NCBI GenBank assembly: GCA_017456055.1
Contig: JAFTKC010000019.1
Span: forward strand, 1 to 64,000
DNA from: Clostridia bacterium
GTDB lineage: Bacteria; Bacillota; Clostridia; Christensenellales; Borkfalkiaceae
Direction of reading: 5' to 3'
Length of the DNA: 64,000 nucleotides
The translations under genes were made by a program, and so were the position numbers. The notes beneath the pieces are model-generated. The model was not told the DNA's origin. It was given only the letters and a program-made list of their open reading frames with translations, and made no database searches. This document shows positions 11,401-29,260 of this stretch, piece after piece. Every line of letters starts with the position of its first letter. The stretch's first letter is position 1.

Positions 11401-12375
11401 ATGGAAAAATACTATTTTTTAACTCACGAAAAGACTGATCCTTATTTTAACTTGGCGAGCGAAGAATATCTTCTAACAAAAAAGGACGAGTACTTTATAT
11501 ATATTTGGCAAAACGATAACAGCGTAATACTAGGGGTAAATCAAGACGCGGTAAAGGAAGTTAACCTAGAATACACCGAAAAAAACGGTGTAAAAGTGGC
11601 GAGAAGACTTACCGGTGGCGGAGCAGTTTACCACGATTTAAATAACGTTTGTTATACTATAATTGCGCCCTTTAACGAAGAAGAAAATAATTATGTAAAG
11701 TTTACCAAGCCCGTTATAGAATATTTAAAAGAATTAGGTGTAAACGCCGAGTTTTCTGGAAGAAACGATATAACGATAGATGGTAAAAAGATTTCAGGCA
11801 ATGCCCAAAAGATATATAAAGATAGAATATTGCATCACGGCACTTTGCTTTTTGATAGCAATATGAACGCCTTAACTAAAGCGCTAAAAGAAAACAAGTT
11901 AAAAATCGAGAGTAAGGGAATAAAGTCAATTAGGGCTAGAGTGACCAATATTAAAGAGCATTTAAAAGAGCCTATAACAATAGGCGAGTTTATATCGGGG
12001 CTAAAAGACTACCTAAAAAAAGACCTAGAAGAGTATAAATTTACCGAGATTGACTTAAGGGAAATAAATAAACTTAAAGAGCAAAAATACTCAACTTTCG
12101 AGTGGAACGTGGGTAGTTCTCCAAAAGGGAAAATCACCTTTATAGAAAAGTTTGATTTCGGCATATTGTCGCTTAATTTTGACCTTACTAAAGGAAGAAT
12201 TGAAAACGCTAAAATTAACGGAGATTTTTTTACGGTAAAAGATATAGAAGAGTTTGAAAAAAGCCTTAACGGAGTAGAGTTAAAAAGGGAGAATTTATTA
12301 GAAGCGTTTAGCCAAATAGTAGAATATATTCCTAATGCAAACCCTATTGAAATAGTAGAAAAATTGTTAAAATAA
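11401..12375 (+). CDS. lplA: Lipoate-protein ligase A
   Basis: A 324-residue ligase with the family signature RRLTGGGAVYHDLNNVCYT near residue 71. It also shows SGRNDITIDGKKISGNAQK and a C-terminal accessory domain ending NPIEIVEKLL. It activates free lipoate with ATP and attaches it to the lipoyl lysines of E2, so it is functionally tied to the upstream complex with its two lipoyl domains. No ribosome-binding site is visible because a terminator-like hairpin ends just before the start. The N-terminus (YYFLTHEKTDPYFNLASEE) is intact, which supports this ATG. Confidence 0.92.
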   Translation: MEKYYFLTHEKTDPYFNLASEEYLLTKKDEYFIYIWQNDNSVILGVNQDAVKEVNLEYTEKNGVKVARRLTGGGAVYHDLNNVCYTIIAPFNEEENNYVKFTKPVIEYLKELGVNAEFSGRNDITIDGKKISGNAQKIYKDRILHHGTLLFDSNMNALTKALKENKLKIESKGIKSIRARVTNIKEHLKEPITIGEFISGLKDYLKKDLEEYKFTEIDLREINKLKEQKYSTFEWNVGSSPKGKITFIEKFDFGILSLNFDLTKGRIENAKINGDFFTVKDIEEFEKSLNGVELKRENLLEAFSQIVEYIPNANPIEIVEKLLK

Positions 12376-12426
12376 CTAATAAAGAGCAAAAAAAATAAAA
12401 ATCTTTTGTAAATTGTAAAAAATTGA

Positions 12427-12455
12427 TTGACAAAGCAAGAAAATAAGACTAAAAT
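12427..12455 (+). promoter_or_regulatory. Promoter of the aromatic amino acid operon
   Basis: TTGACA (12427-12432), a 17-base spacer and TAAAAT (12450-12455). It places the transcript start just before the leader peptide gene at 12475 and about 160 bases ahead of aroF. Confidence 0.75.
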
Positions 12456-12474
12456 TTTATTGTAGGTGCAAAAA

Positions 12475-12531
12475 ATGAAAAATAATAATTTTGTCTTTTA
12501 TTTTGGATATTTTTATTTTAGACCATATTGA
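12475..12531 (+). CDS. Phe/Tyr-rich leader peptide of the aromatic operon
   Basis: An 18-residue reading frame, MKNNNFVFYFGYFYFRPY, is preceded at six bases by AGGTG and ends in TGA. Nine of 18 codons are Phe (5) or Tyr (4), the two products of the operon that follows. The stop codon abuts an RNA segment that can pair as antiterminator, and a Rho-independent terminator lies 49 bases downstream. This is the classic layout of ribosome-mediated attenuation as known for pheA and trp leaders. No Trp codon is present. I infer that stalling at Phe or Tyr codons leaves the antiterminator arm free. Confidence 0.8.
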   Translation: MKNNNFVFYFGYFYFRPY

Positions 12532-12613
12532 TTTAATAGCGGTTATTTTTTGCGTTGAAAAAATTATTTTTATGTATTTAATGACCGATTGAATTTAATC
12601 GGTCATTTTTTTT
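12531..12613 (+). promoter_or_regulatory. Transcription attenuator: antiterminator and terminator of the aromatic operon
   Basis: Terminator: AATGACCGATT (12580-12590) pairs with AATCGGTCATT (12597-12607), then eight T to 12613. Antiterminator: CGGTTATT (12540-12547) pairs with AATGACCG (12580-12587) with one G-U, and ATTTAAT (12531-12537) pairs with ATTGAAT (12588-12594) across a two-base bulge. The two structures share the same arm and exclude each other. A ribosome at the leader stop codon (12529-12531) would cover the antiterminator arm and favour termination. One stalled earlier would not. The aroF ribosome site follows the T-run at once. Confidence 0.75.
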
Positions 12614-12624
12614 GAGGTGAAGAG

Positions 12625-13638
12625 ATGATTATAATAGTAAAGCAAAATCACGAGCAAAAACAACTTGACAATCTCATTAAGTGGATAAAGGGGCAAGGCT
12701 TGGGCGTTGACCTTTCTGTTGGCGAAAATTCAACTATTCTAGGATTAGTTGGCGATACTACGGTTATTGACATAGACCTAGTTCGTTCTCTCGATATTGT
12801 AGAGAACGTAAAGAGAATAGGCGAGCCGTATAAACTAGCGAACAGAAAATTCCATCCAGAAGACACTATAGTTGAAATTGCTGGTAGAAAAATTGGTGGA
12901 GATAACTTTAGCATTATTGCAGGGCCTTGCTCAATCGAGAGCGAAAAGCAAATTATTGCTATTGCAGAAGAAGTTAAGGCGTACGGCGGTGGATTTTTAC
13001 GTGGAGGCGCGTATAAACCAAGAACTTCACCATACGCTTTCCAAGGTTTAAGGGAGAACGGATTAAAACTACTTCTAAAGGCAAAGGAAGAAACTGGTAT
13101 GCCAATCGTCACCGAAATTATGAGCGCATCTCATATAGACCTTTTCCGTGACGTAGATTTAATTCAAATAGGTGCAAGAAACATGCAAAACTTTGAACTT
13201 CTAAAAGAAGTAGGTAAAACGGGTAAGCCTGTTTTATTAAAGAGAGGTCTTGCAAACACCATAGAAGAGTGGCTTATGAGTGCCGAATACATTATGAGTG
13301 AAGGCAACCACAACGTAATTTTGTGTGAAAGGGGAATAAGAACTTTCGAGTCGTACACGAGAAATACGCTTGACCTTTCGGCAATTCCACTATTAAAGGA
13401 ATTAACTCACCTTCCAGTTATCGTAGATCCGTCGCACGCATCGGGGCTAGCGAGATTAGTTAAACCTTTATCACTAGCGTCAGTGGGAGCAGGAGCACAC
13501 GGACTTATGATAGAAGTGCATAACGATCCAATACACGCATTGTGTGACGGCAAGCAATCAATAAAGCCTATAGAATTCAAGGAAATAGTGGATAGCATAG
13601 ACGTTATGCTACCGTTAGTAGACAAAAAGAGGAACTAA
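12625..13638 (+). CDS. aroF: DAHP synthase, type I-beta with N-terminal ferredoxin-like domain
   Basis: A 337-residue 3-deoxy-7-phosphoheptulonate synthase. The first 70 or so residues form the ferredoxin-like regulatory domain found in Thermotoga-type enzymes. The catalytic barrel shows FSIIAGPCSIES, FLRGGAYKPRTSPYAFQG, IQIGARNMQNF, LLKRG and VIVDPSHASG. It condenses PEP with erythrose 4-phosphate, the first step of the shikimate pathway. In relatives the N-terminal domain binds Tyr or Phe for feedback control; that is inferred here. The start follows GAGGTGAAGAG. It is the first structural gene after the Phe/Tyr attenuator. Confidence 0.95.
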   Translation: MIIIVKQNHEQKQLDNLIKWIKGQGLGVDLSVGENSTILGLVGDTTVIDIDLVRSLDIVENVKRIGEPYKLANRKFHPEDTIVEIAGRKIGGDNFSIIAGPCSIESEKQIIAIAEEVKAYGGGFLRGGAYKPRTSPYAFQGLRENGLKLLLKAKEETGMPIVTEIMSASHIDLFRDVDLIQIGARNMQNFELLKEVGKTGKPVLLKRGLANTIEEWLMSAEYIMSEGNHNVILCERGIRTFESYTRNTLDLSAIPLLKELTHLPVIVDPSHASGLARLVKPLSLASVGAGAHGLMIEVHNDPIHALCDGKQSIKPIEFKEIVDSIDVMLPLVDKKRN

Positions 13639-13644
13639 AATTTT

Positions 13645-14499
13645 ATGAATATTGGAATAATCGGCTTAGGCTTAATGGGTGGTTCTTTTGGAAGAACTTT
13701 AGTTAAGCAAGGCAAACACAAGGTATACGCCTTTGATATAAATCCATCGGTAATGCTTAAAGGTGAAATGATAAAAGCGTACCACGAAAAACTCACAAAA
13801 GAAAATGCAAAAGAGATAGATATGCTAGTTTGTGCGCTCTATCCAAAATATTTTGAAAGTGCCGTTAGTGAATTTCTTCCCTTTTTAAAAGATGGAGCAA
13901 TCGTCAGTGATTTTTGTGGAATAAAGAGAAAGGTAGAAAAGCAAATGCGCTCTCTACTAGAAAAACACGAAAACCTAATTTTTATAGGTGGACATCCGAT
14001 GGCAGGAAGAGAGTTTTCGGGTATAGAAAAATCAACGACTACGCTCTTTGATAAAGCGTCGATGATTTTAATCAACGTAAACGCCGATATATTCACAATG
14101 GAAAAGGTAAAAAAGTTTTACCTAGAAGTAGGATTTTCGCAAGTCGTTATAACGACTTCTAGTAATCACGATAGTATGATAGCCTACACTTCGCAATTAT
14201 GCCATATAGTAAGCAATGCGTTTATAAAGAATAAGCAAGCGCAAAGCCACAACGGATACTCTGCAGGTAGTTATAAAGATTTAACTAGGGTTGCAAGACT
14301 TGAGCCGACTATGTGGACGGAACTTATTATGGAAAATAGAGAAATGGTTAAGTGTGAACTAGACGAGTTTATTTTAAACTTAACCGAGTATAAGAAAGCA
14401 ATTGATAGTGAAGATAACGAAAGATTATATCAATTACTTAAAGAGGGAAACGAGAGAAAACTTTCTATCGACACGAAGGGTTTTAAGGAGCAAAAATGA
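13645..14499 (+). CDS. tyrA: Prephenate dehydrogenase
   Basis: A 284-residue NAD-dependent enzyme with the Rossmann start IGIIGLGLMGGSFGRTL and the conserved GGHPMAGREFSGI and HDSMIAYTSQLCHIVSNA segments of the TyrA family. It oxidatively decarboxylates prephenate to 4-hydroxyphenylpyruvate, the Tyr branch. No ACT or chorismate mutase domain is attached; the mutase is on PheA further down. It starts six bases after aroF with AGAGGA upstream and overlaps aroB by four bases, so translation is probably coupled. Confidence 0.92.
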   Translation: MNIGIIGLGLMGGSFGRTLVKQGKHKVYAFDINPSVMLKGEMIKAYHEKLTKENAKEIDMLVCALYPKYFESAVSEFLPFLKDGAIVSDFCGIKRKVEKQMRSLLEKHENLIFIGGHPMAGREFSGIEKSTTTLFDKASMILINVNADIFTMEKVKKFYLEVGFSQVVITTSSNHDSMIAYTSQLCHIVSNAFIKNKQAQSHNGYSAGSYKDLTRVARLEPTMWTELIMENREMVKCELDEFILNLTEYKKAIDSEDNERLYQLLKEGNERKLSIDTKGFKEQK

Positions 14500-15515
14500 C
14501 CAAGATAACGGTTGGAACTAATAAAAACTACGATATAATAATTCAAAGGGGATTAAGTGGCTTAAAGGAGTTTATATTTTCGCTAATTAAAGGTGAAAAA
14601 ATTGCCGTTATTTGCGACGACGTTGTAGATAAACTCTATGCAAGCGAAATAATTTCTCTTTTAGAAGAAAAAAACGTAGTAAAGATAGTTTTTCCACACG
14701 GCGAACAAAATAAAAACGCCGAAAATTATATAAAAATAATAAACACTCTTGCCGAGAACAAATTTACTAGACACGATACGGTAATTTCACTTGGTGGTGG
14801 AGTAGTAGGAGATATGGGAGCGTTAGTTGCTTCAACCTATATGCGTGGAATTAGGCTTATCGCTATTCCAACCACTATTTTGTCAATGGTAGATTCATCG
14901 GTTGGTGGTAAGACGGCGATAGATTTACCTGCGGGGAAAAATTTGCTCGGCACTTTTTATCAACCTGACGGAGTATTCATAAATCTAGATTTTATAAAAT
15001 CCTTGCCCGAGCGAGAAATAAAAAGTGGATACGGCGAGATTATTAAATACGCATATTTAGAAGGCGAAATCGAGCCGAAAGATTTAGAGAGTGAAATTAG
15101 CGAAGAACTTGTTTATAAATGCTTAAAAATAAAGCAAAAAATCGTTGAAGAAGACGAAAAAGAAAGTTCTATTAGAAAACTATTGAATTTAGGGCATACA
15201 GTAGGGCATGCAATAGAAAGTTTGGCTAATTATAAAATATCTCACGGCGAATGTGTGTTAATGGGCATAGAATATGCGATTAACGTTTCTAAAAAATACT
15301 TTTTGTTGTCAAATGAAAAAGTAGAAAAAATGCAAAAAATATTGTATTCACGTGGAGAATTTACTAAGGAAAGTTTTGATAGTGAAAAAATAATAGAAAA
15401 AATTAAAAACGATAAAAAAAGTAGTTTTGACGGAGTAGATTTCGTACTCTTAAAAGACGTAAAGAAACCAAAAATAGTAAAATTAACGTTTAAGGAATTA
15501 AAAGAGTTAATATAA
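14496..15515 (+). CDS. aroB: 3-dehydroquinate synthase
   Basis: A 339-residue enzyme that converts DAHP to 3-dehydroquinate. Visible motifs are VISLGGGVVGDMGALVASTYMRG (NAD and metal region), PTTILSMVDSSVGGKTAID, KNLLGTFYQP, and the metal ligands in GYGEIIKYA and LNLGHTVGHAIE. The start overlaps the tyrA stop as ATGA, and its own stop overlaps the aroA start (TAATG). Length and motifs are normal. Confidence 0.95.
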   Translation: MTKITVGTNKNYDIIIQRGLSGLKEFIFSLIKGEKIAVICDDVVDKLYASEIISLLEEKNVVKIVFPHGEQNKNAENYIKIINTLAENKFTRHDTVISLGGGVVGDMGALVASTYMRGIRLIAIPTTILSMVDSSVGGKTAIDLPAGKNLLGTFYQPDGVFINLDFIKSLPEREIKSGYGEIIKYAYLEGEIEPKDLESEISEELVYKCLKIKQKIVEEDEKESSIRKLLNLGHTVGHAIESLANYKISHGECVLMGIEYAINVSKKYFLLSNEKVEKMQKILYSRGEFTKESFDSEKIIEKIKNDKKSSFDGVDFVLLKDVKKPKIVKLTFKELKELI

Positions 15516-16756
15516 TGAACGTAAGAATAAACCCATCACAATTAAGCGGAAAAATAAAAGCGCCCGCTTCTAAATCATTTGCCCATAGAATAATAATATC
15601 CGCCTTTTTGTCGGGAAAAAAGTGCGTAATCGACGGAGTGGGAAATTCTAAAGACGTATTAGCAACACTTTCTGCATTAAGGGATATGGGTGCAAATTCT
15701 AGTCTAAGTGACGGCGTTTGCGAGATAGAAAGGGTAAATAGAAAAAACAGCGAAAAAATAAATTGTATTGAGAGTGGCTCAACGCTTAGATTTTTAATTC
15801 CCGTAGCATGCGCACTAGGACTAGAGTGTGAGTTTACAGGACAAGGCAGACTGCTTGAAAGACCAATTAAAGAATTGACCGACGTATTAAATGAAAACGG
15901 CGGAAAAATCTTAGGGCATAAAATTGCGGGGAAATTAAAGCCAGGTGAATATAAAATTAACGCGACTATAAGTTCGCAGTTTATATCAGGGCTTATGTTT
16001 GCATTGCCGATTTTAGATGGGGATAGCAAGATAATTTTGTTAGGCAACGCTGTAAGTAAAGGGTATTTAGATATAACTATCGAAGTTTTATCAAAGTTTA
16101 ATATAGAAATAGAAAAAACCGATTACGGCTACTTTATAAAGGGCAATCAAAAGTACGTGTTGCCAAGTGAAATAAAGGTAGAAGGTGATTTTTCGGGTGC
16201 AGCGTTCTTGCTCTCTTCGGGCGCTATTAGAAATAGCATTACCGTAAGTGGATTAAACGAAAAATCTACGCAAGGTGACGCAAAGATTTTAGACGTTTTA
16301 ACTAAATTCGGTGCAAAAATCACTTGTGAAAATGATGAAATTACGGTCACTGCCAACGGCTTAAAAGGGATAGAATACGATTGTGAAGATATTCCTGATT
16401 TAGTGCAAATCATATCGGTAGTAGCAAGTTTTGCCGAGGGTAAAACGGCGCTAAAAAACGTGGAGAGATTAAAGTTAAAAGAAAGCGATAGAATAAAGGC
16501 AATAATTGATATGCTAACTATCGCAGGGATAAGAGTAGAATTAGAAAACAGCAATTTAATTATTTATGGTGGACTAGCAAAAGGCGGAGAATTTGACGGT
16601 GGAAACGATCATAGAACGGTTATGTCGAGCGCAATACTTTCGTCCTATGCAATTGGCGAGTCTAAAATAATTGGAGCACAAGTAGTTGATAAATCATATC
16701 CCGATTTCTTTAGAGACCTTATTACGTTAGGGGGTAAAGTAGATGTCGATATTTAA
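15515..16756 (+). CDS. aroA: EPSP synthase (3-phosphoshikimate 1-carboxyvinyltransferase)
   Basis: A 413-residue enzyme joining PEP to shikimate 3-phosphate. It shows KAPASKSFAHRIIISA, ESGSTLRFLIPVA, the GQGRLLERPIKEL segment, SSQFISGLMFALP, GDFSGAAFLLS, LKESDRIKAI and DHRTVMSSAI. The segment around residue 90 (SGSTLRFL) lacks the NAGTATRPL pattern of class I (glyphosate-sensitive) enzymes, so I cannot predict inhibitor response with confidence. It overlaps aroB by one base and aroC by 14. Confidence 0.94.
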   Translation: MNVRINPSQLSGKIKAPASKSFAHRIIISAFLSGKKCVIDGVGNSKDVLATLSALRDMGANSSLSDGVCEIERVNRKNSEKINCIESGSTLRFLIPVACALGLECEFTGQGRLLERPIKELTDVLNENGGKILGHKIAGKLKPGEYKINATISSQFISGLMFALPILDGDSKIILLGNAVSKGYLDITIEVLSKFNIEIEKTDYGYFIKGNQKYVLPSEIKVEGDFSGAAFLLSSGAIRNSITVSGLNEKSTQGDAKILDVLTKFGAKITCENDEITVTANGLKGIEYDCEDIPDLVQIISVVASFAEGKTALKNVERLKLKESDRIKAIIDMLTIAGIRVELENSNLIIYGGLAKGGEFDGGNDHRTVMSSAILSSYAIGESKIIGAQVVDKSYPDFFRDLITLGGKVDVDI

Positions 16757-17798
16757 CGGCAAAAAAATAGCCTTAGAAATTTACGGCGAATCGCACGCAG
16801 AGAAAATAGGCGTAAAGATTAAAGGCTATCCAAAAATGCAAATAAATATGGAAAATCTTGCTGAGTTTTTAAAAAGAAGACAGGCAAAAAAAGCCGTGTA
16901 TTCAACTAGTAGAATTGAGAGCGATTTGCCAATATTTTTAGGGCTTAATCAAGATAAAATAGACGGCGATTTTACGGCCGAGATTATAAACTCAAACAAG
17001 CGTTCAAACGACTATAATTCGCTATACGGAAAGCCCCGTCCATCACATGCCGATTACGCGTGGAGCGTAAAGGACGGAGTGCTAGATTTTTCCGGTGGTG
17101 GAAGATTTTCGGGTAGACTTACAGCCCCATTTTGTATAGCAGGTGGAATTGCCAAGCAATACCTAGAAAGTTTAGGAATTAAAATCGAAGCGTACGTTTC
17201 TAAGGTGGGAAAAGTTCAAGCAAAATCGTATAAAAGCGCCAAAATCACCGTAGAAGACGTTTTAAGAGAAAGGGTAGGGGATTTCCCATCACTTGATAAA
17301 AAGCAAGAAATAATCGAAGAAATTACCAATGCAAAAGTTCAAGGCGACTCGGTAGGTGGAAAGGTTGAATGCGTGGTAAACGGCTTAAAAGCAGGGCTCG
17401 GCGACAACTTGTTTTCGGGGCTTGAAGGAAAGATTTCCTATTTATGCTATGCAATACCAGCCGTTAAGAGCGTAGAGTTTGGACTTGGCGAAGAATTTAG
17501 CGAAAGTTTAGGCTCAATGGTTAACGACTCGTTATATTTTGAAGACCAAGTGGTAAAAACCAAAACCAACAATTCAGGTGGAATAAACGGTGGAATAAGT
17601 AATGGCAACGACATAACCCTTGCCGTGACGTTTAGACCAACTCCATCTATATCCAAAGAGCAAGACTCGGTGGATTTAGTTAATAAGACGAACGTAAAAA
17701 TACAAATACAAGGTAGGCACGATAGTTGTATCGTTCCAAGAGCCGTACCGGTAGTAGAAAGTGCAGTAGCAATAGCGTTATTAGATGAAATTTTATAA
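16743..17798 (+). CDS. aroC: Chorismate synthase
   Basis: A 351-residue FMN-dependent enzyme that forms chorismate from EPSP. Visible segments are YGESHAEKIGVKIKGYP, KRRQAKKAVYSTSR, RPSHADYAWSVK, FSGGGRFSGRLTAPFCIAGG, GDSVGGKVECVVNGL and GRHDSCIVPRAVPV. The signature RPGHAD is RPSHAD here. The start lies inside the end of aroA, with GGGGG as ribosome site, so the two are probably translationally coupled. Confidence 0.94.
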   Translation: MSIFNGKKIALEIYGESHAEKIGVKIKGYPKMQINMENLAEFLKRRQAKKAVYSTSRIESDLPIFLGLNQDKIDGDFTAEIINSNKRSNDYNSLYGKPRPSHADYAWSVKDGVLDFSGGGRFSGRLTAPFCIAGGIAKQYLESLGIKIEAYVSKVGKVQAKSYKSAKITVEDVLRERVGDFPSLDKKQEIIEEITNAKVQGDSVGGKVECVVNGLKAGLGDNLFSGLEGKISYLCYAIPAVKSVEFGLGEEFSESLGSMVNDSLYFEDQVVKTKTNNSGGINGGISNGNDITLAVTFRPTPSISKEQDSVDLVNKTNVKIQIQGRHDSCIVPRAVPVVESAVAIALLDEIL

Positions 17799-17808
17799 AG
17801 GTGAAAAA

Positions 17809-18951
17809 ATGAAAGACTTATCACAAATTAGAGTAGAAATCGACCAAGTAGACGATCAAATTAAAGAACTATATTTAAAGAGAATGGGACTTGCCGAAGA
17901 AGTTGCAAATCAAAAAAAGCAAACGGGCAAGGGCGTGACGGATATTGAAAGGGAAAACGCAGTAGTTTATAGACTAGCAAAAGATTTGCCCGACAATATG
18001 AAACTTTACCTAAAGGAATTGTATTCAACAATATTTAATACGGGTAAAGCGTATCAAAGTACCATAATTGGTAAAAGCAGTCAAACCATAAACAAGTTGG
18101 AAGAAATATTGAAAGGTGACTTAGAAAACTTCCCAATAACTGCGTCAGTTGCTTGTCAAGGGATAAAGGGCGCAAATAGTGGCGTGGCAACGCATAAACT
18201 TTTCCCCGTAAGCGACATTATATATTTTAGAGATTTCGACGGAGTATTTAACGCCGTAGAAAAGGGATTTTGCGAATACGGAGTGTTGCCGATAGAAAAT
18301 AGTACGGCAGGTTCTGTTTCGGAAGTTTACGATTTAATGAAAAAGCATAATTTCTATATCGTTAGGTCAATTAGAGTGAGAATAGACCATTGTTTATGCG
18401 CAAAAGAGGGCGCGGATATTAAGAATATCAAAAAGGTAATTTCACACTCACAAGCCCTTTCACAATGCCAAGACTATCTAAAGAATCTAAAGGTGGAAAC
18501 CGAGTCTTGTGAAAATACTGCAGTAGCAGGCAAAAAGGTTGCCGACGGCGACGATTTGACCGTTGCTGCTATCTGTTCGTACGATTGTGCCGAAGCGTAT
18601 GGGCTTAAGGTGTTAGATAAGAGCGTACAAGATAATTTAAATAACTTCACTAGATTTATTTGCATTTCAAAAGAACTTAAAATCTTTAGTGGGGCAGATA
18701 GAATTAGCGTAATGACTTCGCTTTCGCATAAACCAGGAAGTTTAAACGCAATACTCGCAAGATTTTCAGCGTTAGGACTAAACTTAACCAAGATAGAATC
18801 AAGACCAATAGCAAACTCGGAGTTTGAGTTTATGTTCTACTTTGATTTTGAAGGAAACGTTAAGGATATAGAAGTTAAAAACGTTATCTCGGAATTGGAA
18901 AACGGCTCGGATAAATTCGTATTCTTAGGAAGTTATAAAGAGATTTTATAG
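17809..18951 (+). CDS. pheA: Bifunctional chorismate mutase / prephenate dehydratase
   Basis: A 380-residue fusion. An AroQ-type chorismate mutase occupies about residues 1-85 (LSQIRVEIDQVDDQIKELY, KRMGLAEEVANQK). The prephenate dehydratase domain follows (about 105-285, with SVACQGIKGANS, YGVLPIENSTAGSVSEVYDL and NNFTRFICIS). An ACT domain closes it (about 295-375, containing SHKPGSLNAILARFSALGLNLTKIESRP). It makes phenylpyruvate. The ACT domain normally binds Phe for feedback inhibition. The start at 17809 has GGTG upstream; an ATG 24 bases earlier lies inside aroC. Confidence 0.94.
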   Translation: MKDLSQIRVEIDQVDDQIKELYLKRMGLAEEVANQKKQTGKGVTDIERENAVVYRLAKDLPDNMKLYLKELYSTIFNTGKAYQSTIIGKSSQTINKLEEILKGDLENFPITASVACQGIKGANSGVATHKLFPVSDIIYFRDFDGVFNAVEKGFCEYGVLPIENSTAGSVSEVYDLMKKHNFYIVRSIRVRIDHCLCAKEGADIKNIKKVISHSQALSQCQDYLKNLKVETESCENTAVAGKKVADGDDLTVAAICSYDCAEAYGLKVLDKSVQDNLNNFTRFICISKELKIFSGADRISVMTSLSHKPGSLNAILARFSALGLNLTKIESRPIANSEFEFMFYFDFEGNVKDIEVKNVISELENGSDKFVFLGSYKEIL

Positions 18952-18959
18952 GAATAAAA

Positions 18960-20195
18960 ATGAAATACGCATTGATAGGCGAAAAACTAGGTCATAGTTT
19001 TTCTAAAATAATCCACAACTTGTGCGGGCTTGAGTACGATTTAATTGAACTAGATAAAGACCAAGTGGAAAACTTCGTTAAGAGTTCTACGTACGACGGC
19101 TTTAACGTGACTATACCGTACAAGAAACAAGTGATGGAATATCTAGACGAGATTTCCCCGTTAGCAAGGCTAGTGGGCAGTGTAAACACGGTCAAAAGAG
19201 AGGGAAATAAACTCGTCGGCTACAATACGGACGTAAGTGGGTTAGAGTATCAAATTGAATGCGCAGGCGCAAGCGTAAAGGATAAAAATGTGCTAATTTT
19301 AGGTTCTGGAGGAGCGAGTTTAACGGCAATCGCCCTATGTAAAAAGAACGGCGCAAAAACTTATAAAATTGTATCTAGAAGTGGCGAAGTAAACTACGAA
19401 AATTGCTATAATTATAAGGAAACTGAAGTAATAATCAACACCACGCCCGTAGGAATGTATCCAAATGTAGAAGGCGTTCCAATAGATATAGAAAGGTTTA
19501 GTAAACTAACGGCAGTTTTTGATTTAATATATAATCCAATTAGAACAAAACTTATCTTAAAAGCTGAAAAGATGGGGCTAAAATGCTCGGGCGGACTTAA
19601 AATGCTTATAATGCAAGGGGTAAAAAGTCAAGAGATTTGGCTTGGCGAAAAAAAAGACCCCGAGATTATAGAAAAACTTTTCGTGGAACTAACCAAAACC
19701 AAAAACAACCTAGTTCTTTCGGGAATGGCAGGCTCTGGTAAAACAACTATTGGAAAAGAGTGTGCTAAGATATTAAATCTTCCTTTTTATGACGTAGATA
19801 AAGGGATAGAGTTAAAATATGGAAAGTCGCCAAGCGAAATTATTTTAAGCGAAGGGGAAGAAACGTTTAGAAATATAGAAACTGAAGTGGTGCTAGAATT
19901 ATCAAAGACAGGTGGCAAGGTAATAAGTCTAGGTGGTGGCAGTATTTTAAGAGAGCAAAACGTAAATGCCCTAAAGCAAAACGGAATAATAGTTTATATT
20001 GAAAGAGATGTAGAAAAATTAGTAGATAAAGATAGGCCGTTGTCTCAAAAGTTCGGTATAAAAGAACTTTTTAAAAAGAGAAAAGATATATACGAAAGCA
20101 CCTTTGATAGAAAGGTAGAGAATAATAAAGATTTAGAAACGGCAGTAAAAGGAGTGATAGAAGAGTATGAAATTGCTTGTTATCAACGGAGTTAA
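18960..20195 (+). CDS. aroEK: Fused shikimate dehydrogenase and shikimate kinase
   Basis: A 411-residue fusion. AroE, about residues 1-245, has the substrate motif GHSFSKIIHN, catalytic Lys in FNVTIPYKKQ, Asp in GYNTDVSG, a nucleotide loop LGSGGAS and the C-terminal MQGVKSQEIW. AroK, about 248-411, has Walker A GMAGSGKTT, substrate Asp in YDVDKGIE, VISLGGGS and an RPL lid. The two steps flank EPSP synthase in the pathway: dehydroshikimate to shikimate, then shikimate 3-phosphate. The chain replaces two usual genes. It overlaps aroQ by 29 bases. Confidence 0.93.
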   Translation: MKYALIGEKLGHSFSKIIHNLCGLEYDLIELDKDQVENFVKSSTYDGFNVTIPYKKQVMEYLDEISPLARLVGSVNTVKREGNKLVGYNTDVSGLEYQIECAGASVKDKNVLILGSGGASLTAIALCKKNGAKTYKIVSRSGEVNYENCYNYKETEVIINTTPVGMYPNVEGVPIDIERFSKLTAVFDLIYNPIRTKLILKAEKMGLKCSGGLKMLIMQGVKSQEIWLGEKKDPEIIEKLFVELTKTKNNLVLSGMAGSGKTTIGKECAKILNLPFYDVDKGIELKYGKSPSEIILSEGEETFRNIETEVVLELSKTGGKVISLGGGSILREQNVNALKQNGIIVYIERDVEKLVDKDRPLSQKFGIKELFKKRKDIYESTFDRKVENNKDLETAVKGVIEEYEIACYQRS

Positions 20196-20589
20196 TCTCA
20201 ATATGCTCGGCATACGCGAGCCTGAACTTTACGGAAAACAAGATTATAAAGCGCTAGTAAAGTACGTAAAAGAAAGCGCCAAAGAACTCGGCGTAAAGGT
20301 GGATTGTTATCAATCAAATTACGAAGGGGATATCGTGACGAAAATTCAAAAAGCGATAGGTAAGTACGATGGAATTGTCATAAATCCAGGTGCTTTTACC
20401 CACACTAGCGTAGCAATACTAGACGCGCTAAAAGCCACGTCTATAAAAACGGCAGAAGTTCACCTAACCGATATTAAGAGTAGAGAAGAGTTTAGAAATT
20501 TCTCGTATATTTCACTCTACGCCGAAAAGGTAATAGTCGGCAAAGGCTTTTTAGGCTACAAGGAAGCAATAGAATATTTTATAAAATAA
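20167..20589 (+). CDS. aroQ: 3-dehydroquinate dehydratase, type II
   Basis: A 140-residue dodecameric-type dehydroquinase, normal length. It has LLVINGVNLNMLGIREPELYG (Asn and catalytic Tyr region), NPGAFTHTSVAILDAL and the catalytic His in EVHLTDI. It dehydrates 3-dehydroquinate. With this gene the operon covers all seven shikimate steps. The start lies within the 3' end of the aroE-aroK gene. A strong terminator follows 17 bases after the stop. Confidence 0.94.
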   Translation: MKLLVINGVNLNMLGIREPELYGKQDYKALVKYVKESAKELGVKVDCYQSNYEGDIVTKIQKAIGKYDGIVINPGAFTHTSVAILDALKATSIKTAEVHLTDIKSREEFRNFSYISLYAEKVIVGKGFLGYKEAIEYFIK

Positions 20590-20665: not shown

Positions 20666-21523
20666 TTATATTTGCTTTAATAAATAATTGTAAAAATCTT
20701 CTGCGTATTTTGAAGTTGGTAGTCTATCGTGTAGTTCAAAAATTAAATCTCTTTGGCAAATAGGTGAAGAGATTGGAAGTAGAACTATGTTTTTATTCTT
20801 CATTTTTCCCCAAGAATATTCAGGCCAAAAAGAAACGCCTGCGCCCATACCTATTATATTTTGAACGGCAGATGGAGAGTCTGATTCAAATAAAATTTTG
20901 GGAGAAAAACCGGCTATGGAGCAAAATTTATTACAAATAACTCCAAAAAGCCTTGAGTTTGAAAGCATAATGAAATTTTCATCTTTAACTTCGCTTAACG
21001 ATATAGAATTTTTTTGTGCGTAAGATGATTGTTTAGGTACTGCAAGATAAATATGTTCTTCTTTTATACAGCGTTTTAAGTAGTGTTTTTGAGTTTTAGA
21101 ATTTATTCCGTTCGTAGTAATAAGGATATCGCAATCGCTTGTTAAATCATTTTGCTCGAAATCGAAAATAACGTCTGGATTTATTTTTTTATATTTCATA
21201 ATGGTGTTTACGACAAAAGTAGAAGCGGCGAGAATATTTAATTTAATCGTTTTATTTACAACGTTTTTTATTTGGTTTATTTCTGTCGGTAAATTATCAA
21301 ATTCTGGTAGTAAAACTTCTAAACGCTGTTTTAAAAATACACCAAACTCGGTTAAAACAACTCCTCTACCTTGCTTTCTAAACAGGGGAACGCCAAGTTC
21401 TCTTTCTAAAAGGTGCATTGCTTGCGTTAAAGATGGTTGAGAAATGTGTATTTCTTCAGCGGCACGAGTGACGTGTTCAAGTTTGGCAATTGTATAAAAA
21501 TATTTTAACTTTTGAATATCCAT
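20666..21523 (-). CDS. LysR-family transcriptional regulator
   Basis: A 285-residue LysR protein. The N-terminal helix-turn-helix reads LKYFYTIAKLEHVTRAAEEIHISQPSLTQAM. The C-terminal periplasmic-binding-like effector domain starts near residue 90 and contains the family-typical GAGVSFWPEYSWG. An AAGGA site precedes the ATG. It is divergent from a small membrane protein gene, and a T-N11-A palindrome sits just before its start. The target and effector are unknown. Convergence with the aromatic operon does not imply control of it. Confidence 0.9.
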   Translation of the reverse strand: MDIQKLKYFYTIAKLEHVTRAAEEIHISQPSLTQAMHLLERELGVPLFRKQGRGVVLTEFGVFLKQRLEVLLPEFDNLPTEINQIKNVVNKTIKLNILAASTFVVNTIMKYKKINPDVIFDFEQNDLTSDCDILITTNGINSKTQKHYLKRCIKEEHIYLAVPKQSSYAQKNSISLSEVKDENFIMLSNSRLFGVICNKFCSIAGFSPKILFESDSPSAVQNIIGMGAGVSFWPEYSWGKMKNKNIVLLPISSPICQRDLIFELHDRLPTSKYAEDFYNYLLKQI

Positions 21524-22660: not shown

Positions 22661-25600
22661 TTGAAACTTACCGAATTATATCCTAACGACCTAACAAGTG
22701 AAGGTGGCAAAAAAGACGACCCAAACAATCTTGGTCCTACTATAAACGACTATATGACGGTTGACTCAATCAAGACTTGGATTAGAAAGTCTGGCGTGGG
22801 ACTTAATTTGGCTATTATAAAAACAAATAAGTATGCAAACGCTTTTATAGAAGGCAATACTATGTATGTAAGTGAAGAACATCTGGCTGACGGAACTTGG
22901 GTGAAACAAGTTGCGCACGAAGTTTCTCACTTTACAGAAAACACAAGAGAATTTGAGCATTTCGCAGAGTTTATAACAGAAGACGTTGAAGCAGTAAATA
23001 GGGCTGTTGCAAAAATTGTAAAGGCTACCGATTATGGTTTTACCGAAGCCGATATTCGTTCTGCTTTGAATAAAATCAAACAAGGCTTAAAACTCACTGC
23101 AAAAGAATTGTCGGGCTATCAAGAGTTAGTGGCCCACGTCACAGAAGAATTGCTTGGCAATGAAAAAAGTATTGAAAGATTGTCACGCAACAATACTGGG
23201 CTTGCAAGAAAAATCTATAACAAAATTAGAGATATACTCACTGCTATTAAGGGAACTAATGCAGAAAAAGCAACAGTTGAAAGACTTAAAAAGGCAGAGA
23301 AACTTTTCGCACGCTCTTTAACTGCTATCGGTTCGGAACTTGGTGAATTTAGAACGCAAGCAGGCAGAACGCTTGAAAAGTATAAAAAGGATAAAGAAGA
23401 ATACCTTGCACTTCCAGAAGCCGAAAGAGAAAACTGGCTTAAAGATAAAGGTTATAAAGCAGAAGATTTTGCTGACGACGTTCTTGACGACGGCAATGAA
23501 CTTGACAATTCTGGCGAAATAAGGTATTCTTATAAAGCAAGAGACCCTAAAACAGTGACTGAAAAAGAATTTAAGCATCACTATTGGGCTGTTGCAAATA
23601 ATCTTCTCTCAAAAGAAGAACTTGGCGTGTTAAATTCTGCAATCGGAAACATAAGCAGGGGCGAAGTTTACGAAAAAAATGCTGACGGATTATATATGAT
23701 ACCCGTTGGCAAAAATCAAGTTTATAACAAAGTTGTTTTCACGAACGGCAAGCAGTCAAGTTATTCAGTTGATTACATTGTAGAAATTCATTGCAAAAAA
23801 GAAAGTAATTTAGATAATGCACTGGGGTTATTGTATGAACAAGAAAAAAACGGTATTCCAACAAAAACTACAAACTTATTCAAAATCCACTATTCAAAAG
23901 ATTTCAGATTTAGCGACTTCCGAGCAAGCCTTGGAAAAAGTAGTGAAAATAGTGGAAGAAAGCAAGACGGAGCAAGAAGTAATAGAGAAGTTAAATTCTC
24001 TCTAAAAGATTCTGCAGGGACTTCGCTTTCACTCTCTCAAAGAGAGTTTTTTAAGGATAGTAAAATTCTTGACGAGAATGGCAATCTTCTTGTGATGTAT
24101 CACGGAACTGGCGAAAACTTTACTATCTTCGATTTAGAAAAAACTGGTTCAAGCAATGATAGAACATCACATCTTGGTTTTTGGTTTACGCCTAAAAAAT
24201 CCACAGCAGAATATTTTGCAGAGTTTAACTCAAATGAATATCTTGGAAAGAAAGGCAGAGTTAGAAAGGTTTATTTAAATATTACTAACCCTAAAATTTA
24301 TGAGCCAGCAGATAATTCTTCAAAAATCAAAGCACTTGAAGATAAGAACGAAGACATTAAAAAGGAAAATGCTGGCTATCGTAAAAGAATGAGTGAAATT
24401 GTTGATAGATTTTACTATTCTATGTATTTTGACGACGGTTATAGTCTTTTTAATAATGCAGAACACGATTTGGGGTATAGAGTTGGCGAAGAATACTACG
24501 TCAAAATGTTCAAAATGACGGAAGAACAAGCCAAGGAAGTGTATTCATTAACAAGAAAGGTTCTTGAAAATAAAAAGATTATAGAAAAGAACAATACCGA
24601 AATCGGCAGGCTTGAAGACGGCGATTCTTTTATGCAAATGGCTGACGACCTTGACGAATTTATGGAATGGATAAATCCGTCCCACAATCACGAAAGGGGC
24701 TATGGTAGAGAAAACTACGTATCTACAAATGCAAGGGAAGCGGCTGAAAAGTTTAGAAATAAACTTATCAAACAAGGTTATGACGGAATATGGGTTAAGA
24801 ATACCAGAATGGACGAAAGTGGCGACCAAATTGTCGCTTTCTACCCAGAGCAAATTAAATTAACAACAAACAAAAAACCGACCGAAAATCCCGACATTCG
24901 CTTCTCTCTCAAAGATAGTCAAGATAGAACCTTGACAGAAGCACAAATTGAATACTTTAAGGATTCAAAGGTTAGGGACGAGCAAGGCAGACTGCAAGTT
25001 GTTTACCACGCTACAAATGCAGTATTTAATAAGATAGACTTTAAGAAAAATGCGCAAGGTGTATTTTGGTTTGCTTCAAGCAAAGAAGATTTATTATCTG
25101 GAAATGTGTCAACGCCCGGCATAAGAAATCGTAATTCTATAAATATTATGGAACTTTATGCAAACATAAAGAAACCTGCGACTTGGGAAGAATACGATAA
25201 ATATGGTATTCAACAACTGAAAGACCTTGGGTATGATGGTGCTATTCTTGAAGAAAATGGTGAGTTTGTAGGTTTTGTATTTAATAGTTCTAATCAAGTC
25301 AAATTAACCACAAACACAAATCCGACAACAAGTTCTGATATCCGTTTTTCACTAAAAGGTGATGCAACTTATACTTTAAGTGACGGACAAGTTAAAAAGA
25401 AAGTTGCCAACTTTACAAAGTTAAAGGTTTATTCAAAAGTAGAAGCCGAAAGCATTATAAACAGTATTCTTGAAACTAATTTTAATCTTGAAGATTATTC
25501 GGTTAGAATTTCTGGCAAAACAAAAGCAGAAGCGATTGACGTTCTTTGGAAGACATTGAATACTGCAGATGTTGGAAAGAGAACTGGAATCTCATTAAAG

Positions 25601-28600
25601 ATTGCAGACTATATTATTGACAACACAATAATTGAAAGCATTTATCTTGAAGAAGAAAACCAAATTTATACCGAAACGATATCGTTCTTAAAGCCCTATT
25701 TGCACAGCGTTGACTTAAAGGCGTTAAAGGGCGAAATAAAATACCGCTACGATACCGATAATAGCGTTTATCTTCTTTGGGGTAAGAGAAAGGGCGAAGA
25801 CGGACAAACTGCTGACCAAATCGCAATGGAACTTGCAGAAAATGGTTTCTTTATAGATGCTGAAAACGAAGCAGATATTTTCTTTGAAATGGACCGTGCT
25901 TATCGTGAAGCAGTTAGGGCGTTAAAAAAGAAAAGCGATAAATTCCTTGCAGATACACTTGGTAAAGAAGAAAGAAATAAACTTCGTCAAGATATTGCAA
26001 AAGATATTCTTCGTGCGTTTGATAGTAATGGTAAAAAATCAAAACTTGCAGAAATTATCGAACAGCAAAAAGAAAGGGCGAAAGTCTGGAAAGACCTTTA
26101 CTACGAAGAAAAACAACGTAATAGCGCTATCAATAATCTTCTTTATGAAGTGGGCAAAATTCGTGATATTCACTTTGGGGACTTCCAGAACTCTACGCAA
26201 TCACACAACTTATTATTCCGTGGTTCAATAGAAAAACTATCGGCAATTAAACACCGTGGCGATCTTAACAAATCTGGAACGAGAAGCATAGTTGCTGGGT
26301 TAAATGAATGGTATAGTAAAGATAATCCTGTCGTTGGCGATAGGTTTATTGAAGATATATCATACATATTAAATAAAATATCTTCTGGAACTGGCAAACT
26401 TACGGCAGAAGAAATTAAAGGGCTTGCTACTGCGGTGGCATATTTTAGGCACTTTATTGAAACCAACAACAAGATTTTCCGTGCTGGTAAGTATGTTTAT
26501 GCGAAGCCGATTGTAGAAGACTATATTAAGAAGATTGCTGATACTCAAAGCCTTAAAGTTAGTTGGGCTGGTAAAGTGTTTGACAAATTGTTTAACAATT
26601 CCAAACTTAACTATATGCAAACATTTAATGACCCAATGACTGTTGCAAGGTATATGGATAAGTATGGCGACGGCTTCTTTACCCAAACACTTGAATCGTT
26701 TAGAGAAGGCGCAGTTAACTCTGCTATTCTTGAAATGGAATTAAACGCAAGTGTTGAAGAATTTTACGACAAGCACAAAAAGTTCTTAAAGAACTTGAAG
26801 GCTAAAACGGTTAAGTATAATAACGTCGAAATCCCTGCTAACAAGGCTTTATATTTGTACATGGCTCTTAATAGGGAACAGGCTTTAATGGGGCTTGCAA
26901 GGTCTGGTTTTAGTTATAGAGACGACAAAGGAAAGACTGTTCGTGTTTCTGGTTTTGAAACTAATGAAGACTTAACCTTGGACGATATAAAAATTATTGC
27001 AAGCGAAGTTCAGACGGAACTTGAAAAGCAATTTACCGAAGCAGAACTTGAATATATCAAGATTGCTGAAAAACTTTTCAACGAAGACTGTAAAAAGTTG
27101 AAGTCTGAAAGAGATAAAACAAGACTTGGTTATTCAAACGTTGTTGACGATTATTATATTCCTATTCGTAGGGCATATATACCACAAAGTGTTGACGTTG
27201 ACAGTTTGCAATTTGAAATGGACCGTGTAAGTAATTTGTCGTTTAATAAGTCTGCTGTAAAAGGTGCAAAGAACGAATTATTTATTGAGTCGCTTGACCT
27301 TGTTCTTTCAAGGCATTTAAGGGGAATTGCGCAGTATTACCATTTATCCACTGTTATTGATAATTTTAATATTATATATAATATGGATATAGGTGGTAAT
27401 GCTAACCGTGTAAAAAGCATTGCTTCCGAAAGCGTAAATGTTTGGGAGAAAGGCAAGACCTATTTGCAAGATTTAATATCGGATATTCAAGGCGTTAAAA
27501 GGGGTGAAGGTAGTCGTGCGTTTGGGTTTATACGTGGTAGTTATGCAAAATACCAACTTGGCGCAAATCCCAAGGTTTGGTTTACTCAATTATCTTCTTT
27601 CTTTGCTTCAACGAGTATTCTTGATTATGGTTCGGTTATAAAAGGTTTGGCTATAAAAACAAATGACGTTGATAAATATTGTTCGCTTGCAAAATTACGT
27701 AATAATGACAATACTGCAGCGCTTGCGCAAGGCGTTCTTGACAAGGTTGACAAGGTTAGCAATGTTTTAATGAAGCCTATCGGTATGACTGACAGACTTG
27801 TGGTAAAGAAATTGTTTGGTGCTTGCCAAGTTCAAGTTCAAAAGAACACTGGGCTAAAAATCGGCACAGAAGAAAACAAGGTTAAGGCTGGCGAACTTTT
27901 ACAAAAAGTTATTCTTGAAACGCAACAAAACACAATGGCAACAGAACGTTCACAAGCAATGCGTTCGTACAGCGAACTCATGAAGACATTAACAATGTTT
28001 ACGTCTGACTCAATGAAAGTTGTCGGTAGAGTTATAGACTCTTATGGTGAATTATCAATCTTAAAAGCAAGAAGAAAAGCAACCACAAATATAAACGAAA
28101 AAATGCTTTTTGACAAGAAAATTAATACCGCAAGAAAAAAAGCAGCGAAAACAACTTCTGCACTCGTGGCTTCAGCAATGTTTATGGCTTTAATTGCACA
28201 AGCTTTTAGAACACTTTACAACAAAGACGACGAAGAAGATAATATTGTGGAGAATATGGTTGTTGATGCAATCGGTAATCTTTTCGGTGGTTTACCTGTA
28301 TTCAAAGATATTTATAATAAAATTGTAGAAGGCTACGATTTTGACGGATATCAGTATTCCGCAATAAATGACTTGCTTGATTCTGTTTCAGATGTAATAA
28401 ACTTAACTGGGAATATTTTCTCTGGCAACGCAGATTCAAGAGATATGGCATTAAACATCAAAAAAATGTCCTATGCTATCGGTCAATTATTTGGTATTCC
28501 AGTTAGAAATGTTTATAATATATTCTATGGTTTAACCAAAAGAGTTAGCCCAGAAACTGCCTATAAGATTGACGACGTGTTCTATAAACAAAGTTATAAT

Positions 28601-29260
28601 TCTGACTTGAAGAAAGCAATTAAGAATAACGATGAAGCAATGATTGCTACTATTGCTGGTCTAATTATGGACGAAAATGTAGGCGACTTTGAAAACGGTT
28701 CAACGAGAAGTGAAGTAAATAGACTTCTTTCTGCCGGGTTTGATGTTCTTCCACAATCCGTTCCAAGCAGTGTGACTATAAACGAAGTTCAGCATTCACT
28801 AACTGGCCCACAACAAGAAAAGTTTAGAAAAGCATATAGTGGAGCAATTACTACCGTTGATAAACTTGTTTCAAGCAATGGTTATAAAATCGCAACTGAC
28901 GAAGCAAAGGCAAAGGCTATAAAATATGTTTATCGCTATTATTACTACGAAGCACAACATCAAGCCTTAAATGTTGATTTAGATAGTAAGTTGTATTTGT
29001 TTGGTCAAATAGTTCCGATTGAGAAAATGGCTCTTGCACTTGCAGAAGTTCCTTTACTGGTCGAGAACTCAACAAACAAGAAAACAGCCGTGCAAAGATA
29101 CTTGCAAGCCAGCAAATTAACATCTGCGCAAAAATATATGCTTATGGGCTACTTTGGGTATAAGAACACCAAAGGCGAAGGCGTTGTTAAAAGCGCAATA
29201 AATAAAACATCACTAACAAAAGAACAGAAAAAACTTCTTTTAGAAAAGTGTGGCTATTAA
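22661..29260 (+). CDS. Giant phage-type polyvalent protein: zincin, two ADP-ribosyltransferase-like domains, membrane-active C-terminus
   Basis: About 2,200 residues. An N-terminal metallopeptidase-like domain has HEVSH at 86-90. An unassigned module follows (about 290-440). Then come two ART-PolyVal-like domains, the first from residue 450 (FFKDSKILDENGNLLVMYHGT) and the second from 750 (YFKDSKVRDEQGRLQVVYHAT). The long C-terminal part resembles large polyvalent-protein domains (LPD38-like), with a hydrophobic helix near 1832-1855. A junction motif DIRFSLK recurs at 286, 443, 745 and 893. Such proteins are ejected with phage DNA to act early in the host. The start is a weak TTG without ribosome site. 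The frame stays open back to 22502, so the gene is probably 5'-truncated. No capsid or terminase genes are near. Confidence 0.72.
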   Translation: MKLTELYPNDLTSEGGKKDDPNNLGPTINDYMTVDSIKTWIRKSGVGLNLAIIKTNKYANAFIEGNTMYVSEEHLADGTWVKQVAHEVSHFTENTREFEHFAEFITEDVEAVNRAVAKIVKATDYGFTEADIRSALNKIKQGLKLTAKELSGYQELVAHVTEELLGNEKSIERLSRNNTGLARKIYNKIRDILTAIKGTNAEKATVERLKKAEKLFARSLTAIGSELGEFRTQAGRTLEKYKKDKEEYLALPEAERENWLKDKGYKAEDFADDVLDDGNELDNSGEIRYSYKARDPKTVTEKEFKHHYWAVANNLLSKEELGVLNSAIGNISRGEVYEKNADGLYMIPVGKNQVYNKVVFTNGKQSSYSVDYIVEIHCKKESNLDNALGLLYEQEKNGIPTKTTNLFKIHYSKDFRFSDFRASLGKSSENSGRKQDGARSNREVKFSLKDSAGTSLSLSQREFFKDSKILDENGNLLVMYHGTGENFTIFDLEKTGSSNDRTSHLGFWFTPKKSTAEYFAEFNSNEYLGKKGRVRKVYLNITNPKIYEPADNSSKIKALEDKNEDIKKENAGYRKRMSEIVDRFYYSMYFDDGYSLFNNAEHDLGYRVGEEYYVKMFKMTEEQAKEVYSLTRKVLENKKIIEKNNTEIGRLEDGDSFMQMADDLDEFMEWINPSHNHERGYGRENYVSTNAREAAEKFRNKLIKQGYDGIWVKNTRMDESGDQIVAFYPEQIKLTTNKKPTENPDIRFSLKDSQDRTLTEAQIEYFKDSKVRDEQGRLQVVYHATNAVFNKIDFKKNAQGVFWFASSKEDLLSGNVSTPGIRNRNSINIMELYANIKKPATWEEYDKYGIQQLKDLGYDGAILEENGEFVGFVFNSSNQVKLTTNTNPTTSSDIRFSLKGDATYTLSDGQVKKKVANFTKLKVYSKVEAESIINSILETNFNLEDYSVRISGKTKAEAIDVLWKTLNTADVGKRTGISLKIADYIIDNTIIESIYLEEENQIYTETISFLKPYLHSVDLKALKGEIKYRYDTDNSVYLLWGKRKGEDGQTADQIAMELAENGFFIDAENEADIFFEMDRAYREAVRALKKKSDKFLADTLGKEERNKLRQDIAKDILRAFDSNGKKSKLAEIIEQQKERAKVWKDLYYEEKQRNSAINNLLYEVGKIRDIHFGDFQNSTQSHNLLFRGSIEKLSAIKHRGDLNKSGTRSIVAGLNEWYSKDNPVVGDRFIEDISYILNKISSGTGKLTAEEIKGLATAVAYFRHFIETNNKIFRAGKYVYAKPIVEDYIKKIADTQSLKVSWAGKVFDKLFNNSKLNYMQTFNDPMTVARYMDKYGDGFFTQTLESFREGAVNSAILEMELNASVEEFYDKHKKFLKNLKAKTVKYNNVEIPANKALYLYMALNREQALMGLARSGFSYRDDKGKTVRVSGFETNEDLTLDDIKIIASEVQTELEKQFTEAELEYIKIAEKLFNEDCKKLKSERDKTRLGYSNVVDDYYIPIRRAYIPQSVDVDSLQFEMDRVSNLSFNKSAVKGAKNELFIESLDLVLSRHLRGIAQYYHLSTVIDNFNIIYNMDIGGNANRVKSIASESVNVWEKGKTYLQDLISDIQGVKRGEGSRAFGFIRGSYAKYQLGANPKVWFTQLSSFFASTSILDYGSVIKGLAIKTNDVDKYCSLAKLRNNDNTAALAQGVLDKVDKVSNVLMKPIGMTDRLVVKKLFGACQVQVQKNTGLKIGTEENKVKAGELLQKVILETQQNTMATERSQAMRSYSELMKTLTMFTSDSMKVVGRVIDSYGELSILKARRKATTNINEKMLFDKKINTARKKAAKTTSALVASAMFMALIAQAFRTLYNKDDEEDNIVENMVVDAIGNLFGGLPVFKDIYNKIVEGYDFDGYQYSAINDLLDSVSDVINLTGNIFSGNADSRDMALNIKKMSYAIGQLFGIPVRNVYNIFYGLTKRVSPETAYKIDDVFYKQSYNSDLKKAIKNNDEAMIATIAGLIMDENVGDFENGSTRSEVNRLLSAGFDVLPQSVPSSVTINEVQHSLTGPQQEKFRKAYSGAITTVDKLVSSNGYKIATDEAKAKAIKYVYRYYYYEAQHQALNVDLDSKLYLFGQIVPIEKMALALAEVPLLVENSTNKKTAVQRYLQASKLTSAQKYMLMGYFGYKNTKGEGVVKSAINKTSLTKEQKKLLLEKCGY

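Follow-up and report, generated by a model that had tools for sequence, protein, structure and literature searches.

Putative leader-peptide attenuator with a Phe/Tyr-rich frame ahead of a shikimate operon in Clostridia

The window, i.e., the whole 64,000-nucleotide stretch of DNA analyzed here, contains an eight-gene operon (12625–20589, plus strand) that, as judged by Pfam, runs from DAHP synthase through to the Phe and Tyr branches. The first gene, aroF (12625–13638, plus strand), encodes a DAHP synthase with a ferredoxin-like domain (PF00793 and PF18152; NF006421). The remaining genes (13645–20589, plus strand), also assigned by Pfam, are tyrA (prephenate dehydrogenase), aroB, aroA, aroC, the chorismate mutase–prephenate dehydratase gene (CM-PDT, pheA), an aroE-aroK fusion, and aroQ. 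The eight-gene operon with the common shikimate steps that was proposed in the first-pass annotation is thereby confirmed, and relatives show a similar gene order across it. An AT-rich region (12427–12625) separates the operon from its 5′ neighbor, a lipoate-ligase gene that ends at 12375. On the other side, a gene for a LysR-type regulator (20666–21523, minus strand) is convergent with the 3′ end of the operon. Farther downstream lies a 2,199-codon frame with a TTG start (22661–29260, plus strand), which has no NCBIfam match at E ≤ 0.001; from its reading, it perhaps encodes a mobile-element protein.

The region upstream of aroF begins with a promoter-like site, TTGACA-17-TAAAAT (12427–12455, plus strand), that agrees with the consensus at 11 of 12 positions. 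Sites with at least 9 of 12 consensus positions occur three times in 12300–12700 versus 2.5 expected; taken alone, the match would be poor evidence for a promoter. It is followed by a ribosome site, AGGTG (12464–12468) and then GCAAAAAA (together 12464–12474, plus strand), and by an 18-codon frame, MKNNNFVFYFGYFYFRPY plus stop (12475–12531, plus strand; ATG at 12475, TGA at 12529–12531), with five Phe and four Tyr codons. The promoter, the ribosome site, and the composition of the frame are all as first annotated. To estimate how often such a frame arises by chance, the 250-base region upstream of aroF was shuffled 5,000 times, with a frame required to have an ATG and a ribosome site. The observed density of eight Phe or Tyr per 10 codons was never matched, and a density of seven was found in 4 shuffles.

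An intrinsic terminator (12580–12613, plus strand), detected by a stem-loop scan and by covariation, lies between the frame and aroF. Its stem at 12580–12607, with a run of eight T at 12606–12613, is the only terminator-like stem in 12300–12700, where 0.1 is expected from shuffles. Folding and covariation also point to an antiterminator, in which 12530–12537 pairs with 12588–12595 and 12540–12547 with 12580–12587. Its 5′ arm (12530–12547, plus strand) starts within the leader stop codon TGA. Its 3′ arm (segment 3; 12580–12595, plus strand) begins with bases that double as the 5′ arm of the terminator. The two stems are mutually exclusive and share an arm, the second one has an eight-T tail, and the leader stop codon touches the antiterminator arm, all in line with the first-pass annotation.

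Covariation was assessed in an alignment of 18 sequences (group 1: the window and 17 relatives), using shuffle and permutation controls that ignore relatedness among the genomes. For the terminator, 15 cells were changed on both sides of a pair, and for the antiterminator, 8; neither value was reached in any of 500 shuffles, and both signals were lost on a shift of one base. The number of antiterminator pairs with a two-sided change, four, was equaled in 17 of 500 shuffles. In a second alignment (group 2), made of 13 leaders of the YFYFYF type, the terminator also covaries; the antiterminator is 96.1% paired, and its covariation is not significant in these 13 sequences. The complementarity to the terminator arm of the sequence at and 3′ of the stop codon exceeded that of shuffles (p ≤ 0.05) in 15/18 group-1 leaders, 2/10 group-2 leaders (three were excluded), and 52/99 further leaders; five leaders in this test had no detectable terminator.

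The claim that no protector stem is needed may be too strong. A candidate protector or pause stem can form between segment 1 (12521–12528, plus strand), which comprises the Arg-Pro-Tyr codons, and a part of segment 2 (12536–12544, plus strand), both identified in the 18-sequence alignment, where 84.7% of cells are paired. On the other hand, covariation of this 1:2 stem is not significant among the 18 sequences, and the stem is absent (P = 0.00) when the untranslated leader is folded before the 3′ arm of the terminator is made. In the full leader, its folding probability is 0.73.

We estimated how often such a frame precedes aroF in other genomes. A relative of the DAHP synthase protein was found in 51 of the 61 genomes near the window. 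After removal of loci with fewer than 240 bases upstream or with an identical upstream stretch, 136 loci yielded 131 regions, in which near-duplicates persist (for example, L065 and L067). The rule applied called for an ATG, a ribosome-site pattern, a stretch with aromatic residues at 6 of 10 codons, and a limited distance. A Phe/Tyr-rich frame was found in 82 of the 131 regions compared with 2 of 6,550 shuffles, and 79 of the 82 frames contain at least two Phe and at least two Tyr; the count missed L021, which lies 602 bases upstream, and leaders such as L012 and L019 that failed the ribosome-site pattern. In an even sample of the class of the window, which the names of its relatives indicate to be Clostridia, DAHP synthase was present in 118 of 157 genomes, of which 8 were omitted, leaving 110 upstream regions, 2 of them with fewer than 150 bases (L151 and L215). 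A leader precedes aroF in 58 of these 110 genomes, with at least two Phe and at least two Tyr in 53 of the 58, by a rule that counted Trp together with Phe and Tyr and without a shuffle control; by the same rule, the other 52 genomes have no such leader. A DAHP synthase profile search gave 80 loci, the best of 594 candidates, and a strict rule found the leader in 48 of the 80. Species in which it occurs are, among others, Clostridium magnum, C. ganghwense, Oscillibacter valericigenes, and Angelakisella massiliensis. Where at least 8 kb of downstream sequence was available, 26 of 34 strict-rule leader loci had at least five further shikimate or Phe/Tyr genes on the same strand.

Judged from sequence, the leader attenuator is thus a widespread family in the class Clostridia and common among relatives of the window. 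The outcome that the first-pass annotation had named as contrary to its reading, i.e., relatives that lack the small frame or its Phe and Tyr codons, did not occur (82/131 and 58/110). Its view of the arrangement as unusual has to be dropped, given 58 of 110 class genomes with a leader and 7 of 110 with a T-box core. A model of the element matched a single place in the window's own genome, the present one, among 114 scored out of 2,584 candidates. The idea of further operons under the same element was rejected: This was the one match in the genome, and of the weak matches in genomes G018, G019, and G048, those in G018 and G048 are apparently ordinary terminators that separate unrelated genes.

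Alternatively, the stem-loop might simply be the terminator of the lipoate-ligase gene and the frame a product of chance in AT-rich DNA. The end of that gene at 12375 and the base composition of the region are compatible with such an origin; however, a near-consensus promoter intervenes, the frame recurs far above chance, and the antiterminator covaries, which makes this the least probable of the explanations considered, close to negligible. What is found at the locus is a frame rich in product codons with its own ribosome site, a terminator before the first gene, and an antiterminator sharing an arm with it. We therefore interpret the region as a ribosome-mediated (leader-peptide) transcription attenuator that governs the shikimate operon, with a probability of about 0.88. 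The recurrence of the frame and the covariation of both stems support the leader-peptide attenuator originally placed at the head of the operon. Control of the stem-loop by a protein or a trans-acting RNA, with the leader only tuning the response, is improbable, if somewhat less so than the chance frame. The LysR-type gene (20666–21523) just past the operon, on the opposite strand, could supply such a regulator, but the feature found repeatedly in the class is the Phe/Tyr frame.

The sequence of events that we infer for the leader-peptide attenuator is the following. Transcription would start near 12462, judging by the position of the promoter-like site, and a ribosome would load at once on the 18-codon leader. 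A shortage of charged tRNA-Phe or tRNA-Tyr would make the ribosome stall in the Phe/Tyr run, most likely at codons 13 to 15. These presumed control codons, Phe13-Tyr14-Phe15 (12511–12519, plus strand), follow from the geometry of a stalled ribosome, whose footprint edge was assumed to lie 13 bases from the A-site codon, and from folding of the remaining RNA. The stalled ribosome would cover segment 1 and leave 12530–12547 free to pair with 12580–12595 before the terminator 3′ arm exists, so that polymerase would enter the operon. With both tRNAs charged, the ribosome would reach the stop codon, where it would cover the first bases of the antiterminator arm; formation of the terminator would then end transcription near 12613.

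The predicted RNA structure was compared with this scheme. The 12460–12625 leader folds with a z score of −2.68, and 2 of 200 shuffles were as stable. Of the two states proposed for this RNA in the first-pass annotation, the antiterminator does win as long as the 3′ arm of the terminator has not been made, but the full leader at equilibrium is mostly in the terminator state. With a ribosome at codons 13 to 15, the RNA lacking the 3′ arm forms the antiterminator with a probability of 0.99 (−16.3 to −16.7 kcal/mol), compared with 0.73 (−7.5 kcal/mol) when the ribosome is at the stop codon and 0.99 in the untranslated leader. The contrast between the stop state and the stalled state is thus smaller than desirable. 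In the full leader with a ribosome at codons 13 to 15, the terminator has a probability of 0.89 to 0.94 at equilibrium. It wins in six of seven states, and a stall at Tyr12 alone keeps the antiterminator (P = 0.97). Of the 26 leaders listed, 18 had no listed stall that lowered the terminator probability below 0.5. As a test of the mechanism, equilibrium folding by itself fails to predict readthrough, which counts against the model. Since the full leader at equilibrium favors the terminator, the model requires the choice between the stems to be made kinetically, and a polymerase pause would serve such a choice.

In a pattern search, bases 12541–12552 (plus strand) agreed with the consensus for RNA polymerase pausing, G-10 Y-1 G+1 (GG-N8-T-G). 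This consensus has been reported at the hisL and leuL pauses (PMC9291695). A pause at this position would probably hold polymerase for the ribosome to catch up. Close to the window, the match occurs in 13 of 18 leaders (1.9 expected) and in 9 of 12 (1.5 expected). As a class-wide feature it was rejected, with matches in 4 of 61 other leaders versus 6.2 expected; it is confined to the two near groups. The T run in this pause match (12546–12553) is complementary to 12464–12474, where the leader has its ribosome site. This duplex was stronger for a leader's own partner than for permuted partners (p = 0.013 for 18 sequences and p = 0.010 for 13 sequences), but in 11 of the 31 sequences its stability fell short of −6 kcal/mol. 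Pairing of TTTTTTGC with the leader ribosome site may block later ribosomes.

The products of the pathway bear on which amino acids are sensed. No match to PF00425 (Chorismate_bind; TrpE/PabB/MenF) was detected in the window's own genome, which is 93.7% complete, whereas 14 of 14 controls were positive. A search of 36 relatives from the same genus, several with incomplete genomes, was likewise negative; matches were found in 7 of 61 genomes of the order sample. The own genome thus shows no branch of the PF00425 type toward Trp, folate, or menaquinone. In the absence of a TrpE/PabB/MenF-type enzyme, Phe and Tyr appear to be the sole amino acid products. We also considered whether Trp in the leader tracks the Trp branch. 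Within the order sample, Trp occurs inside the aromatic run only in leaders L046 and L054, from the TrpE-positive genomes G057 and G049; contrary to the Trp-branch pattern, L017, from the TrpE-negative genome G029, has Trp as its last residue. In the class sample, Trp was found in 11 of 29 leaders from TrpE-positive genomes versus 6 of 29 from TrpE-negative ones (Fisher p = 0.25), and the idea was rejected.

The same attenuator might sense Phe alone, with the Tyr codons as passengers, as reported for the actinobacterium Corynebacterium glutamicum. There, the aroF operon is reported to answer Phe limitation and to be indifferent to Tyr availability (PMC11802643). Unless constrained by the RNA, unsensed codons should drift, and this can be examined in the leaders. 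Both residues are present in 143 of 144 distinct leaders, which in total contain 748 Phe and 628 Tyr. Twelve leaders were aligned by their common ending, (R/K/T)-P-(Y/C). In six core positions, picked by eye, 71 of 72 cells are Phe or Tyr; there are 12 Phe/Tyr swaps. Tyr positions change to Phe and a single time to another residue. Ten columns dominated by Phe or Tyr (120 cells) contain 37 departures, 18 of them Phe/Tyr swaps and 19 to other residues. The conservation of the core positions in the 12 leaders, a pattern read from the alignment, leans toward sensing of both Phe and Tyr, and the response would then depend on both amino acids. Sensing of Phe alone nevertheless retains a substantial, if minority, share of the probability. 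Alternation of the two residues was rejected as proof of dual sensing. Although 480 of 750 neighbor pairs alternate (~379 expected), the excess reflects only depletion of Phe-Phe pairs (117 versus 213 expected; Tyr-Tyr, 153 versus 158), which is also seen in 85 less similar leaders and for which avoidance of T runs could account.

The conserved ending also allows for an arrest peptide. TnaC is a nascent-chain arrest peptide, and a TnaC-like leader sensing free Phe or Tyr could stall the ribosome at Pro-Tyr-stop, over the antiterminator arm, which would lead to repression by the amino acid. Such an arrest would account for the (R/K/T)-P-(Y/C)-stop ending of 12 of the 18 group-1 leaders. The other six and the group-2 leaders lack this ending and keep the Phe/Tyr run, and the bases of the ending can pair with segment 2, which could explain its constancy at the RNA level. 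We consider an arrest peptide very unlikely, more so than a trans-acting regulator, and favor stalling of the ribosome at Phe and Tyr codons.

T-boxes, the usual assumed tRNA-charging sensors of Firmicutes, bind tRNA directly and involve no leader peptide, unlike the attenuator in the window. Like it, the T-box riboswitch (RF00230) senses tRNA charging and controls termination, and it is present in the own genome, with 11 matches at E ≤ 0.1, 6 of them above the curated score. Within the window, the T-box annotated before aspS (34959–36689, plus strand), the aspartate-tRNA ligase gene, is recovered as a match at 34729–34894 (plus strand), albeit at 51.7 bits versus a curated score of 93. The pheS gene is also located behind a T-box-like element (L137; G000:C4:6842-7073; 81.8 bits, below the curated score). 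Upstream of the own aroF, in 12400–12625, no T-box was found even at E ≤ 5. Phe charging in this organism therefore appears to be served by two kinds of sensor: pheS would be under a T-box, and Phe/Tyr synthesis under a leader peptide. When the 4,227 models of Rfam release 15 were searched against the window and 13 related loci, only tRNAs scored above the gathering threshold. In the class sample, a T-box core precedes aroF in 7 of 110 genomes, all without the leader, and 5 of the 7 pass the Rfam T-box threshold. In loci L207, L211, L214, L229, and L254, a T-box stands before aroF where other class members have the Phe/Tyr leader. Occurrence of a T-box or a leader at aroF would represent replacement of one sensor by another at a single gene.

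Several described attenuators resemble the window leader. The Escherichia coli pheA and pheST leaders share with it an aromatic-codon run and a terminator and antiterminator with a common arm, but they contain Phe codons only and control a single gene or a synthetase operon. The thr and ilv leaders read several amino acids, and the statement that classic attenuators read one amino acid was therefore too narrow. The C. glutamicum aroR leader, with its Phe-Tyr-Phe codons, also goes beyond that statement (PMC11802643). It resembles the window leader in preceding a DAHP synthase operon and acting by ribosome-stalling attenuation (PMC11802643 and PMC4046766), and differs in having Phe-Tyr-Phe instead of nine aromatic codons and in being reported as Phe-only, a comparison of logic alone. 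The E. coli pheA (pheL) and pheST attenuators are named in PMC11802643. The uORFC-13-1 motif upstream of Acholeplasma aroF is likewise a short reading frame, in which a U run encodes one or more Phe residues, and the gene is preceded by what may be a promoter, a ribosome site, and a terminator. Compared by description only, it differs in that its 24 representatives come from Acholeplasma and from environmental sequences that are unassigned; the section that describes the motif makes no mention of Tyr codons, and its function was inferred there (PMC8632094). The His leaders of Firmicutes are also leader-peptide attenuators that take the place of T-boxes in Gram-positive bacteria, five Eubacteriales species among them, but concern histidine genes and few species (PMC2965389 and PMC9413887). 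T-boxes were surveyed in PMC2494555, and actinobacterial attenuators are treated in PMC1262725. No earlier description of a Phe/Tyr leader in Clostridia was found in the literature searched, most subscription papers lying outside it. The attenuator in the window very likely operates as the first-pass annotation proposed, perhaps aided by a protector stem and a pause. It belongs to a widespread and apparently new family in its class, of a mechanism that is already known.

Thus, 58 of 110 class genomes have a predicted leader-peptide attenuator ahead of the aromatic entry gene, and in the own genome, pheS and aspS both follow a T-box-like element. A broader reading is that an ancient, Clostridia-wide joint sensor of tRNA-Phe and tRNA-Tyr sets the whole shikimate flux, was replaced by T-boxes in some lineages, and, in the lineage of the window, carries one-shot closure of the ribosome site by TTTTTTGC after the first ribosome; we put this forward tentatively, as possible rather than probable. 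If confirmed, the family would allow the control of aromatic amino acids to be predicted by a simple rule in many uncultured bacteria. It would also offer a natural test of whether two amino acids can be integrated by a single leader, and a well-sampled example of sensors that replace each other at the same gene.

The distance between the leader and aroF varies among loci. In L016, L018, L021 to L025, L027, and L029, long stretches that look repeat-like by eye separate the terminator from aroF, and upstream of them the leader and terminator are intact. In L040, a Phe/Tyr leader with a terminator lies at least 485 bases 5′ of aroF, with a gene that reads as aroQ-like in between; this leader may be the head of an operon that begins with aroQ.
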